A DNA stretch of 46,000 bases, taken from assembly GCA_025612245.1 (NCBI GenBank), contig JAAXKQ010000024.1, positions 1-46,000 on the forward strand. Direction: 5' to 3'. A model generated the notes under the pieces. The model was not told where the DNA came from, did no database searches, and saw nothing but the letters and a program-made list of their open reading frames with translations. Below are positions 1-4,010 of this stretch, in pieces. This DNA is from Ignavibacteria bacterium. Lineage in GTDB: Bacteria; Bacteroidota; Ignavibacteria; Ignavibacteriales; SURF-24. Made by a program: the position numbers and the translations under genes. Numbering within the stretch: the first letter of the stretch is position 1; every line of letters starts with the position of its first letter.

Positions 1-1059
1 AAGAAGGTGGTCTATGCCTTTATCGCCACACTCTCTTTCAGCCGCCACAAGTACGTCGAGTTTGTCTATACACAGAACGAGAAGAGCTTCATTCAGTCCC
101 ACATTCATATGTTCCGATTCTTTGGCGGGGTACCCGTAACAATAAAGCTCGATAACTTAAAAAGCGGAGTAATAAAGCCTGACCTCTATGATCCTAATCT
201 AAACAGGGCCTATGCCGAGATGGCAGAGCACTACGGGCTTTTTCTTGACCCCTGCCGTGTAGCAAGTCCACAGGACAAAGGGATCGTAGAACGTGACGTT
301 CAGACCATAAGAGAAGAGTTCAGGAAAATGCTGGCCCTAAATCCCTTGCTTACTCTTTCTGAGGCAAATGAGGGGATACTGAGCTGGATAGAGAATCTTT
401 ACGGCAGAAGGAAGCACGGCACAACCCAGGAAGAACCTTATACTCTGTTCCTTAAGGAAGAAAAGCCCAGGCTTTTGTCACTTCCCATGGATGAATATGA
501 AATATCGGAGTGGAAAATGGCTACCGTGCATCCTGATCACTACATACAGGTAAACAAGAAAGCCTACTCGCTGCCTGAAGTATACATAGGAAAAGAGGTC
601 ATGGTTAAAATAAGGCAGAATACCGTAAGCATTTATTACAACGATGAACTCATAAAGCAGCACATAGTCCCTTACGGCTTCCGTCAGACAGACATAAACG
701 ACTTCCCTGAGCATATGCGCCACCGCCTGGACACCGGGATGCCGTTCTACTTAAGGGAAGAGGCCCAGAAGATTGCGCCTGAATTTGAAAAACTGATCGT
801 CAAAATACTCTCTCCCAACGCCTACATTAACCTAAGGCGTGCCCAATCCATCGTAAATATTGCAAAAGGGTACCCCGGTGAGATCATTAAGCTTGCCAGC
901 ATGACAGCTCTGGAGGAGTACTCAAATGTTCACCCGAAGCTCTTTAGAGCGATCATAGAAAAGCACCAGGAACTTGAAAGTGACAAGGAATCTCACGAGA
1001 TGAGCCTTTCACTTGAAACAGAAAGCTTTGTCCGCACTTCGGACTATTTTACACACTAA
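1..1059 (+). CDS. istA: IS21 transposase IstA, C-terminal part (5' end outside window)
   Basis: This is the DDE-type integrase/transposase that cuts and joins the IS21 ends. The frame is open to the window edge, so the GTG at 7 is not a real start; about 350 residues are visible and full IstA proteins are usually near 500. The rve core is recognisable: the second catalytic Asp lies in KLDNLKSGV near visible residue 48, and the catalytic Glu in KGIVERDVQ near residue 95. The first Asp would lie upstream of the window. The stretch after residue 170 matches the usual beta-rich C-terminal domain (VNKKAYSLPEVYIGKEV). It is followed after 9 bases by istB, as expected for a co-transcribed pair. Identification is firm; the missing N-terminal HTH cannot be assessed. 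Confidence 0.93.
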   Translation, partial: KKVVYAFIATLSFSRHKYVEFVYTQNEKSFIQSHIHMFRFFGGVPVTIKLDNLKSGVIKPDLYDPNLNRAYAEMAEHYGLFLDPCRVASPQDKGIVERDVQTIREEFRKMLALNPLLTLSEANEGILSWIENLYGRRKHGTTQEEPYTLFLKEEKPRLLSLPMDEYEISEWKMATVHPDHYIQVNKKAYSLPEVYIGKEVMVKIRQNTVSIYYNDELIKQHIVPYGFRQTDINDFPEHMRHRLDTGMPFYLREEAQKIAPEFEKLIVKILSPNAYINLRRAQSIVNIAKGYPGEIIKLASMTALEEYSNVHPKLFRAIIEKHQELESDKESHEMSLSLETESFVRTSDYFTH

Positions 1060-1077
1060 CAAAAAGGAATGTTTTAT

Positions 1078-1818
1078 ATGCCCAACTACTCAGAACTTGT
1101 AAGACAACTCAAAAGCCTTAAGCTCTCGGGGGCAGCCGAGACACTGGAAGTCAGGATAATGGAAGCCGAGCAGAACAGGCTCTCATACTCAGAACTACTG
1201 CAGATGATAGTAGGTGATGAAATCCAGACTAGACGGAACAGAATGCTCCAGAGGCTAATAACAAATGCAAAACTTGAGTCCTCAAAGACGCTTGAGGCAT
1301 TTGATTTTACATTTAACGCATCCATCAATGCCCAGCAAATAAGGGAGCTTTCACTCTGCCGCTTCATTGAAAAAGCCGAGAACGTCTTCTTCATTGGCCC
1401 TACCGGAACAGGGAAAACCCACCTGGCCAAGGCACTCGGGCACTCGGCATGCAGGAAGTATATGACCGTACAGTTCTTTAACTTCCATGACCTCTTTGCC
1501 CAGCTCTCAAAGGCAGATCTTTCGAACAAGCTTGAAAACATGTTAAAAAGTCTGATCAAGGCAGAGCTTTTAATCATAGATGACTTTGCCTTCAAGAAAA
1601 TAGACCAGAAATATGCCGAATACTTCTACGCCGTTATTGACCAGCGCTACGGGCTTAAGTCTACCATCATTACGAGTAACAGGTCTATTAGTGACTGGGC
1701 CGGGATATTCCCTGACCCCATAATGGCCAATGCCCTAATGGACAGGCTCTGCCACAATGCCCATCAGATTGTAATTAAGGGAGAGTCTTACAGGAGGAAA
1801 TCAAGGCCGAAGAGTTAA
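1078..1818 (+). CDS. istB: IS21 helper ATPase IstB
   Basis: IstB is the AAA+ ATPase that assists IstA in target selection and strand transfer. The protein shows a DnaC/IstB-like core with Walker A GPTGTGKTH, Walker B LLIIDDFA and the sensor region STIITSNRS, followed by the typical IstB ending with GESYRRKS. Length (246 residues) is normal for the family. I chose ATG 1078 because AAGGA at 1064-1068 gives a 9-base spacing, whereas the in-frame ATG at 1069 would touch the ribosome binding site. Intact, with no frameshift seen. Confidence 0.93.
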   Translation: MPNYSELVRQLKSLKLSGAAETLEVRIMEAEQNRLSYSELLQMIVGDEIQTRRNRMLQRLITNAKLESSKTLEAFDFTFNASINAQQIRELSLCRFIEKAENVFFIGPTGTGKTHLAKALGHSACRKYMTVQFFNFHDLFAQLSKADLSNKLENMLKSLIKAELLIIDDFAFKKIDQKYAEYFYAVIDQRYGLKSTIITSNRSISDWAGIFPDPIMANALMDRLCHNAHQIVIKGESYRRKSRPKS

Positions 1819-2435: not shown

Positions 2436-2509
2436 TGAAGAGTAAAAGTTCGACTTAAAAGTTGTATAAACCACTATAAAGTAATATATTACATTCAAGT
2501 CTTAAGAAA

Positions 2510-2606
2510 TCGCCAAAGTATTAAAATAAGAGTTTGATTTGAAAATAGCCGGAATAGGTTTGTAAGAGTTTGGCGACTCTTTAGGCTTACTAATTCGGCT
2601 ATTTTC
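2510..2606. repeat. Nested palindrome, RNA-like, with possible loop pairing
   Basis: Outer arms GAAAATAGCCG (2541-2551) and CGGCTATTTTC (2596-2606) are perfect 11-base complements. Inside, AAGAGT and ACTCTT form a 6-bp stem around the loop TTGGCG. The loop region TTTGGCGA (2569-2576) is also perfectly complementary to TCGCCAAA at 2510-2517, so a pseudoknot or an alternative fold is possible. No ORF uses this stretch. It lies between the small lipoprotein and the tRNA-Phe remnant. It could be a structured RNA, a bidirectional terminator or a mobile palindrome. Confidence 0.5.
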
Positions 2607-2680
2607 TTATTAAAATGTTCTAAAAATTGTGTTTAGGTAATTAAAAAAGTAATTAAGTGTCGGTAAGCTCTTGTAAACTA

Positions 2681-2737
2681 TGGTAGAGCAAAGGACTGAA
2701 AATCCTTGTGCCGGCGGTCCGATTCCGTCTATGTCCA
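2681..2737 (+). pseudogene. tRNA-Phe 3' fragment (GAA anticodon), no matching 5' half
   Basis: From TGGTAGAGC onward the sequence follows bacterial tRNA-Phe closely: anticodon stem-loop AAGGACTGAAAATCCTT with GAA, variable region GTGCC, T-arm GGCGG-TCCGATT-CCGTC, then TATGTCC and discriminator A at 2737. The 5' side does not fit: the bases expected for the acceptor (GGACATA) are absent, and the sequence upstream would give a 15-base D loop. The T loop has TCC instead of TTC, and no CCA is encoded. I read it as a 3' remnant, such as is left when an element integrates into a tRNA gene. A divergent working tRNA is much less likely. Confidence 0.7.
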
Positions 2738-2752
2738 CAGGAAAATGCAAAA

Positions 2753-2778
2753 CGCTGATACAGACAGCGCTTTTTTTT
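2753..2778 (+). terminator. Rho-independent terminator after the tRNA-Phe remnant
   Basis: Stem CGCTG (2753-2757) and CAGCG (2765-2769) with a 7-base loop, followed by C and eight T. It lies 15 bases after the tRNA fragment, as terminators do after real tRNA genes, so it probably belonged to the original tRNA-Phe unit. Confidence 0.75.
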
Positions 2779-2922
2779 ATTTTAACCTGAATCTTTTAGA
2801 TTTGTTCTCAAGACTTTTTAGGTAAAACTGATGCCTGGAACATCAGAATAATCCAAGGCCTCAATTTAACCTGAGAGTACAGGAAAACACTAAATTTTTG
2901 TTTCACTAAGCAAAATTCCATT

Positions 2923-3561
2923 ATGAATGAGAGTAATATAAAACTTCCATTTGGCGTTGATGGTATTTCCATTACACTTATTTATCTCCGCAAATATGAT
3001 AATCAACTTGATAACTCCTTTTCTCAGGTTGATTATCTCCATACTTCTCGTTCTCCAGCTTTTCAAAGCGATAAACAATTGAGCGAAAATAAAAGACTTC
3101 AATATGAATCCGGTATAAACAGTTGTGTCAATAAAATACTGGAGACATCTGCAAAATGGGAAGATGCGGATATAATCGTCTCGGCTCCATCAAAATCAGA
3201 TTACCAAAAGCCGTATTTCGATAAAGTGAAACTTAAAACATTTAATGCAAAAGATTTAACGGAAAAATTCTCCAAAGGCATTAGGGCGGGAGATCCTGGC
3301 AATTTTAAGAAATTTTATTCGGAATTTCATTTTGATAAAAAAGAAATGAAGCCCATTCATTACAATAAATTGTTAATTGTCGACGACGTATACTCAGATG
3401 GCAAGACGGTTTCTGCTATTGTTAATAAACTTGTATCCGCTGAAATTACTTTTAATAGCTATTTCGTAATTTGCCCATTGCTAATTGAGCACAAAGACAA
3501 AATTGATTATAGTAAGTTTATTTTTACGCAGTATCCTGAACATCCTGTAAATGATAAATAA
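2923..3561 (+). CDS. Orphan phosphoribosyltransferase-fold protein
   Basis: The 212-residue product has one clear motif: LLIVDDVYSDGKTVSAI around residues 150-165. It matches the PRPP-binding signature of type I phosphoribosyltransferases (hydrophobic strand, two acidic residues, then a small-residue loop). A preceding strand DIIVSAPSKS near residue 85 would correspond to the pyrophosphate loop strand. No N-terminal zinc finger of ComF type is seen, and no base-specific hood motif I recognise, so the substrate is unknown. There is no signal peptide. The start is uncertain: no Shine-Dalgarno precedes ATG 2923. The gene is AT-rich relative to the core genes and flanked by a tRNA remnant and repeats, which suggests acquired DNA. 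The stop codon lies inside a 24-bp repeat (3547-3570), so the C-terminus may have been altered by that repeat. Confidence 0.6.
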   Translation: MNESNIKLPFGVDGISITLIYLRKYDNQLDNSFSQVDYLHTSRSPAFQSDKQLSENKRLQYESGINSCVNKILETSAKWEDADIIVSAPSKSDYQKPYFDKVKLKTFNAKDLTEKFSKGIRAGDPGNFKKFYSEFHFDKKEMKPIHYNKLLIVDDVYSDGKTVSAIVNKLVSAEITFNSYFVICPLLIEHKDKIDYSKFIFTQYPEHPVNDK

Positions 3562-3748
3562 TTTAATCCCAACCGCCGGTTCAGGAAGGTTACTGAATCC
3601 AAAACCCGGTTACAGAAGGTAGTATCTAGAATTAAGTGTAAATGATTTATAATTCAATCCCGGAGTGGAGCCCCAGGGGCGGACAGCGGAGGGATTGAAT
3701 TTATAGTGACTCTGGAAGTTAACCAGAGGAATCAATAAATTAAATCAT
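3547..3748. repeat. 24-bp direct repeat plus split inverted copy; multi-stem structure
   Basis: Copy A (3547-3570) and copy B (3638-3661) are 24-base direct repeats of the form GTAAATGAT..ATAATT.AATCCC with 3 differences (21/24). A third copy is inverted and split: GGGATTGAATT (3691-3701) and TAAATCAT (3741-3748), separated by about 40 bases that contain their own hairpin (CTCTGG 3710-3715, CCAGAG 3723-3728). B and C would pair: 11 bp AATTCAATCCC with GGGATTGAATT, and 8 bp ATGATTTA with TAAATCAT, giving a multi-branched fold. Copy A overlaps the end of the preceding ORF; the structure ends just before a strong AAAGGAGG and the transposase remnant at 3771. Confidence 0.65.
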
Positions 3749-3770
3749 CTACAAAGGAGGGATAGATACG

Positions 3771-3908
3771 ATGGAACTGACCAAGGAACAGGTTGAGCAG
3801 TTGCAAAAAGACCTGGCCTAGGCCAAAAACTATTCTGACCTCTTGGGCAAGTATGGAGCCATAAGGAAGCTCCTTAAATCTTCAGTTTCTCTCTGGAGTT
3901 TACCTTAA
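3771..3908 (+). pseudogene. IS256/mutator-type transposase remnant (N-terminus only, nonsense mutation)
   Basis: A strong AAAGGAGG at about 3752-3759 precedes ATG 3771. Translation gives MELTKEQVEQLQKDLA, a TAG stop at 3819, then in the same frame AKNYSDLLGKYGAIRKLLKSS followed by unrelated residues and TAA at 3906. The pattern 'Y.DLLGK.G.IRKLLK' is typical of the start of IS256-family transposases (usual length near 400 residues). The frame loses similarity after about 40 codons, so the rest of the gene is deleted. Clear pseudogene; the exact family assignment is from memory of the motif. Confidence 0.65.
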
Positions 3909-4010
3909 ATTCTAGACAGACTCATTCCACTCTTCAATTTCCATGGCCCAAAGCATCGAATTGTTCCAATGACACGAACTGAGTTTTTCATAGGTGCAAT
4001 ATCTGAGTTC

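Follow-up and report, generated by a model that had tools for sequence, protein, structure and literature searches.

We found that a short segment of the window (i.e., the whole 46,000-nucleotide stretch of Ignavibacteria DNA analyzed here), spanning 3618-3923 on the forward strand, is, as judged from its sequence, a single, internally deleted and decayed copy of an insertion sequence (IS) of the IS256 family (Mutator-type), which is predicted to carry a structured leader between its left terminal inverted repeat (IRL) and the transposase start. We posit, with a probability of roughly 0.6, that in live relatives this leader would function as a read-through insulator of transposase translation, with the copy in the window being a fossil. 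The initial annotation had noted here three related 24-base repeats (A, B and C) forming a multi-stem structure, and had offered a terminal structure of a mobile element, a recombination site or a structured RNA as its nature. The first of these options holds, with the structure forming the left end of an element of the IS256 family. The last also finds support, as the segment is likely to be a structured leader with compensatory changes in its homologs; nothing observed here favors a recombination site.

The identity of the element is established by an intact copy in the same genome (locus L002 on contig C39; L002 1662-244, minus strand), by comparison with which the borders of the copy in the window were set. 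The intact copy is 1419 bp long, as against 306 bp in the window, begins with GGTAGTATC and ends with ACAGACTC, and shows the 8-bp target duplication TTCTGGTA on both flanks. Its single 408-aa ORF matches the Pfam Transposase_mut (PF00872, E=1.3e-120) and NCBIfam transpos_IS256 (NF033543, E=4.9e-128) models. The subterminal TGTAAA motif, described in the terminal repeats of the IS256 family (PMC7780238), is present at both ends, such that this copy shares with IS256 and ISCth4 a Mutator/IS256 transposase, imperfect terminal repeats with TGTAAA and an 8-bp duplication. The window likewise has imperfect terminal inverted repeats: the IRL lies at 3618-3642, with TGTAAA at 3637-3642, and the right repeat (IRR) at 3899-3923 on the minus strand, where it reads GGTAAA (inverted pair 3625-3642/3899-3916, 83% complementary); the segment 3875-3923 and the right end of the intact copy share 82% identity. 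What the initial annotation called a dead transposase is a gene remnant (3771-3890, forward strand) with codons 1-40, which match residues 1-40 of the intact transposase at 80% identity and are interrupted by one TAG (3819-3821, codon 17), followed by the internal deletion; because of this stop codon and deletion, the copy in the window is dead and constitutes a fossil. Its flanks (TTACAGAA and ATTCCACT) display no visible target duplication, and its classification as a decayed descendant therefore relies solely on sequence similarity.

A search of the own genome with 3530-3780 recovers three places, namely the window (whole query), C39 (query 88-251, 95%) and C26 (query 89-233, 92%). Since the latter two matches start at query 88-89, the recurring unit begins near 3617 and not at repeat A. 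The recurrence that the initial annotation had proposed to look for is therefore real for the unit with B, which is found at two further places, but these lack A; its borders also have to be moved, the natural unit being the insertion sequence from 3618, with a structure that extends further outwards. The C26 copy (L003) is leader-only, matching only to about the Shine-Dalgarno sequence, and no right end is recognizable in it. We also considered a reading of the window copy as a MITE and rejected it: both ends are present, but only one copy with such a deletion was found in the genome. Further fragments include a diverged right end in the own genome (L008, C31:127555-127712, 79%) and a left end in a genome of the same genus (L067, G001 C52:1157-1223, 88%).

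Repeats A (3547-3570) and B (3638-3661) are identical at 21 of 24 bases, as first reported, and at 31 of 41 in a longer frame (3530-3570 versus 3621-3661); the second-best matches in the 46-kb window reach 17/24 for B (both strands) and 25/41 for the longer frame, and the likeness of A and B is beyond chance for the window. The split inverted third copy is also present, and B and C are predicted to fold together, with copy B furnishing the 5′ sides of two helices, P1 and P2, and C the 3′ sides of P2 and P1. The 5′ arm of P1 (3637-3649), comprising the inner IRL and beyond and the first half of B, pairs with the second part of C, extended to 3741-3753 directly 5′ of the Shine-Dalgarno sequence, by way of 3642-3649/3741-3748 and TGTA 3637-3640/TACA 3750-3753. 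The second half of B (3651-3661) pairs with the first part of C (3691-3701) to form P2, which encloses a small inner GCCC/GGGC hairpin. Between the two parts of C lies the hairpin noted earlier, P3 (3710-3728; CTCTGG/CCAGAG, 3710-3715/3723-3728). The result is a predicted three-way junction of P1, P2 and P3, to which is added an outer helix, P0, joining GTATCTA of the outer IRL (3622-3628) to TAGATAC (3763-3769) in the spacer between the Shine-Dalgarno sequence and the ATG. The initial annotation had missed P0 and the TGTA/TACA pairing, both of which lie outward of its repeats. Pairing with the start region thus runs from IRL base 5 onward in the window, and the Shine-Dalgarno-like AAGGAGG (3754-3760) is flanked by P1 and P0. 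The multi-branched fold anticipated for B and C is recovered as the minimum-energy structure of 3618-3773 (-49.3 kcal/mol, z -5.3), against -30.1 ± 3.6 kcal/mol for dinucleotide shuffles (n=200). Hence, of the three repeats that had been treated as one unit, B and C belong together, whereas the direct repeat A lies outside the element and takes no part in the fold. No Rfam 15 family reaches its gathering score in the window, and the three matches at a lax threshold in 2500-4000 cover neither the repeats nor the leader.

Relatives were collected by a transposase query, which gave 53 loci in named genome contigs, and by a further transposase search of 142 genomes (own and relatives), 63 of which had a match, within the same order at the farthest among the matches listed; the start regions of relatives were delimited by tblastn. 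The main set comprises 25 leaders: the window, L002, L013 (an Ignavibacteriales MAG), L014 (labeled Bacteroidia), L038 (Stygiobacter) and 20 loci of the 142-genome search; L079 and L096 from that search were left out as having no left end. Three of the 53 loci went to the main set and 16 to a second set, and the remaining 34 were left out, being truncated, near-duplicates, of actinobacterial origin or devoid of a recognizable start codon or left end. The 24-element tests given below use the main set minus L087, whose start had been set wrongly; several of the main-set leaders come from broken transposase genes, and L100 has no ATG at the aligned place. The main set displays a common layout of an IRL (GGAGTGTAAATAATTTTGTGTAAATGG-like), hairpins, a 3′ arm (often TTAACCAT-like), Shine-Dalgarno-like bases and the start, with the exception of L088, whose minimum-energy fold departs from it (leader z -0.9); L038 and L077 have an extra hairpin between P1 and the Shine-Dalgarno sequence. 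In L084, L097 and L100, longer hairpins with GGATAAACTC in common take the place of the P2 tip, as though this hairpin were an exchangeable module. The second set, picked by eye (n=16; 11 from Bacteroidota, three from Campylobacterota and one each from Gastranaerophilales and Tatlockia), features a short hairpin instead, in which the IRL pairs with bases immediately preceding or surrounding the start codon. As a DNA query, the leader matches 7 of 146 genomes, own included; elsewhere, L067 and L068 are clear left-end pieces and L069-L072 weak matches of 24-51 bases.

The multi-branched fold is conserved in relatives, with compensatory changes. As a MAFFT alignment of 26 leaders misaligned the variable hairpins (and had L087 trimmed at the wrong end), the pair count was restricted to 12 of the 26, hand-chosen for the absence of large inserted hairpins and realigned. 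The structure counted consists of 28 pairs of P1 and P2 drawn from L099. With three of the 20 P2 column pairs omitted (paired in 1-3 of 12 cells), which favors the percentage, 89.4% of 320 cells are paired, as against 81.4 ± 1.2% in shuffles (0/500 as high). Cells changed on both sides number 31, against 13.3 ± 2.8 in shuffles (0/500), the covariation score is 0.295 against 0.173 (0/500), and 11 pairs have a double change against 8.0 (17/500); the count of further pair types does not rise above shuffles (24 versus 24.3, 344/500). Slid versions of the structure are paired at only 21-47%, and RNAalifold, unaided, finds the P1 and P2 stem, with double changes in 8 of 21 pairs, 7 of them in P1/P2. 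The covariance folding suggested in the initial annotation hence comes out in favor of the stems, and its reading for the case of repeats that are absent elsewhere and arms that vary randomly, namely a decayed palindrome, does not apply, as homologs with compensatory changes exist. The relatedness of the sequences inflates such shuffles, and the slid controls and the IRL pairing tests therefore also carry weight. The three own-genome copies show no double changes among themselves, as is expected from their closeness. P0 is outside the structure used for covariation and accordingly rests on the pairing of the IRL with the start region.

For this pairing, the mean predicted duplex energy across the 24 elements is -14.38 with the element's own start region versus -12.18 with permuted partners (0/5000), with the inner part of the IRL (-12.83 own versus -9.60 permuted) and the outer part alone (-8.40 versus -7.46, 18/5000) both showing the effect. 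The effect varies between elements: in an initial version of the test, 10 of 24 had their own start region at rank 12 or below (at worst 21st in L077 and L088, 20th in L038 and 18th in L083). In the 16 elements of other clades, the corresponding values are -15.48 and -10.12 (0/5000), and in 15 of 16 the own start region comes among the top four of the 16 tested, L039 (11th) being the exception. The pairing of the 5′ end with the transposase start region, as expected of a read-through insulator, is thus recovered by prediction and permutation, if not in every element.

The predicted energies for opening the start site point in the same direction. Across the 24 elements, opening -18 to +3 costs a mean of 9.20 kcal/mol in a read-through RNA and 4.94 kcal/mol in one starting at IS base 20, with a drop of more than 2 kcal/mol in 20 of them; for the window copy, the cost goes from 12.1 to 3.1 kcal/mol. 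In L083 the cost rises with the base-20 start and in L089 it hardly falls. Replacing the IRL by its shuffled sequence lowers the mean to 5.77 (own higher in 21/24), by the IRLs of other elements to 7.48 (own higher in 18/24) and by flanking sequence to 5.31 (n=23). An exception is the intact own-genome copy L002, where the shuffled IRL gives 12.5 against 8.8 for the real one. In the other clades (n=16), the cost of 13.01 decreases to 8.14 for RNAs starting at base 20 (by more than 2 kcal/mol in 13/16) and to 3.11 for those starting at base 28 (by more than 2 kcal/mol in 16/16), while swapped IRLs give 7.89 (own higher in 16/16).

We envision that a host transcript running into the element would yield an RNA with the whole IRL, in which the outer repeat (P0) would pair with the spacer between the Shine-Dalgarno sequence and the AUG, the inner repeat (P1) with the bases just 5′ of the Shine-Dalgarno sequence, and the P2 and P3 hairpins would fill the loop, potentially trapping the ribosome-binding site between two helices. 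An RNA with an internal start, or one initiated where IRR and IRL meet in the excised circle (around IS base 20), would be devoid of the outer repeat and leave the site open. Elements of the IS256 family transpose in a copy-out/paste-in manner, via a circle that carries a junction promoter. We infer the start near base 20 from two sources. In ISCth4, another IS256-family member, the -10 element of this promoter was placed at bases 8-13 of the left end, and the -35 element in the right end (PMC7780238); and all 40 of 40 elements have -10-like hexamers (3-5 of 6 matches to TATAAT) near IRL bases 8-15, taken as the best of seven positions in AT-rich sequence with no chance control. In three Campylobacterota elements (L016, L018 and L024), the best-scoring -35/-10 pair, likewise scored with no chance control, has a 17-bp spacing with the -10 in the loop between the arms, and would put the start inside that loop. 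Neither the promoter-pair scoring nor the hexamer search identified a promoter for the window's own clade. Action of the leader as RNA and its effect on translation are likewise inferred from the predicted fold and opening costs.

The symmetry of the fold between strands raises an alternative: the 3′ arm might be an internal copy of the terminal inverted repeat serving at the DNA level, as a site for the transposase or a host factor (autoregulation), or as part of a cruciform or a hairpin of a single-strand intermediate. Against shuffles, the leader 3618-3773 folds as well in the form of single-stranded DNA (z -5.3) or minus-strand RNA (z -7.0), the mean z over 24 elements being -5.8 for the plus and -5.6 for the minus strand, and the partner of the 3′ arm in L075 and L014 is the outer terminal repeat itself. 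The P2 tips of L077, L081 and L099, for example, read GC-GTA-GC, flanked by purine-rich 3x3 loops (GAA/GAA, GGA/GTA); as sequences of the GCGAAGC type form unusually stable DNA mini-hairpins, such tips would fit a role as DNA. We nevertheless regard a DNA-level role as unlikely, given that the 3′ arm stays at the Shine-Dalgarno sequence and AUG, whereas its matching stretch of the IRL varies between elements. Cells of the G-U type also outnumber those of the A-C type 20 to 3 in the 12-element alignment, although strand composition may favor that and the whole-leader test is neutral. A bias toward the plus strand was discarded as evidence for RNA: this strand is more stable in 23/24 main-clade and 11/16 other elements, yet the strand difference (-6.4 versus -7.4 kcal/mol) is nearly the same in shuffles as in the real sequences.

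If the leader does act as RNA, it might instead be a structured 5′ UTR dampening translation whichever transcript carries it, or else be targeted by an antisense RNA or an RNA-binding protein, with ISPpu9 as a precedent. The tnp gene of that element has a long structured 5′ UTR thought to bury its ribosome-binding site, with mutations weakening it raising a reporter 26-fold and an antisense RNA proposed to unfold it (PMC8450116). Judged from the fold, P1-P3 could still form in RNAs starting at base 20, and such a role can overlap with read-through insulation. By itself, it appears doubtful to us, in that the predicted closing depends on the IRL in most elements, which is the very part differing between transcripts from outside and those from inside. 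Altogether improbable is a third alternative, in which A and B would have arisen together, not as transposon ends but as a recombination site or tandem array belonging to the phosphoribosyltransferase-like gene. A is 31/41 identical to B and contains the stop codon of that ORF, but this alternative is contradicted by the B unit, whose two further occurrences in the genome lack A and whose start coincides with that of the intact, target-duplicated element.

The preferred reading, read-through insulation, has parallels in IS families other than IS256: in IS10 and IS50, as in IS200, expression from impinging transcripts is insulated by end or leader sequence that folds over the transposase start. 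RNA folding over the transposase start is hence a known device, which the leader described here resembles by prediction; it differs in using the terminal inverted repeat as its pairing arm and in having additional hairpins in the loop. In IS200, one stem-loop terminates impinging transcripts and a second occludes the ribosome-binding site (PMC3196728). The leader shares with that of ISPpu9 tnp a long structured 5′ UTR, but belongs to a different IS, with an antisense RNA being proposed to act on the latter. As far as the cited account of IS256 and ISCth4 goes, the multi-branched leader and the predicted pairing of the IRL with the ribosome-binding site set the present elements apart, as do the deletion and breakage of the window copy. 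We found no report of such a leader in the IS256 family among open-licence papers; based on this, and on the absence of an Rfam 15 family at gathering score in the window, its occurrence in this family with a multi-branched form appears to be new. More tentatively, and as a possibility that we would not yet favor, the left terminal repeat might, in a broad part of the IS256 family, also be a cis-acting RNA switch, elaborated into a multi-branched leader in the window's order. The transposase would then be translated only from RNAs beginning inside the repeat, such as those made by the circle-junction promoter, and its translation would be licensed by the transposition intermediate. If read-through insulation is the right reading, a large IS family would possess a built-in guard against activation by insertion into transcribed genes, the same bases would be transposase binding site, part of the promoter and regulatory RNA arm, and circle formation would be linked to transposase translation in a simple, testable manner; the structured leader would also be one that Rfam 15 did not report in the window.

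Repeat A, in its full extent (3530-3570, forward strand), is a putative degenerate copy of the outer 41 left-end nucleotides of the element, situated outside of it. It scores 0.6 with a clade-wide left-end profile, against 18.9 for the true left end in the window, and its likeness is accordingly limited to the element's own subfamily; it was not found elsewhere in the own genome at the sensitivity of the 3530-3780 search. The likeliest explanation from these comparisons is that A would be what remains of another left end from this subfamily, and would supply the last codons of the upstream ORF. Among 24 elements, such a second left end upstream is seen in one, L038, where a terminal-repeat-like sequence (score 24.1) lies 61 bases before the leader start, with the other 23 having none above 8 (22 to 1588 upstream bases each). 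The upstream ORF (2923-3561, forward strand, 212 aa) does end within A, its stop codon being at 3559-3561 as initially noted, but its designation as an orphan phosphoribosyltransferase should be softened to weakly phosphoribosyltransferase-like: the best NCBIfam match covers 51 residues at E=0.0012 and 18.2 bits against a cut-off of 181. Relatives of this ORF were found neither in the other 145 genomes searched nor in viral contigs. Further upstream, 2667-2737 is a degenerate tRNA-like sequence (Rfam 23.7 bits against a cut-off of 29), which ARAGORN does not call. At the start of the window (7-1818), a 350-aa ORF (7-1059), which we take to be IS21-type transposase-like, is followed by an IstB ATPase (PF01695, E=5.8e-74), with the two presumably constituting an IS21-type gene pair.
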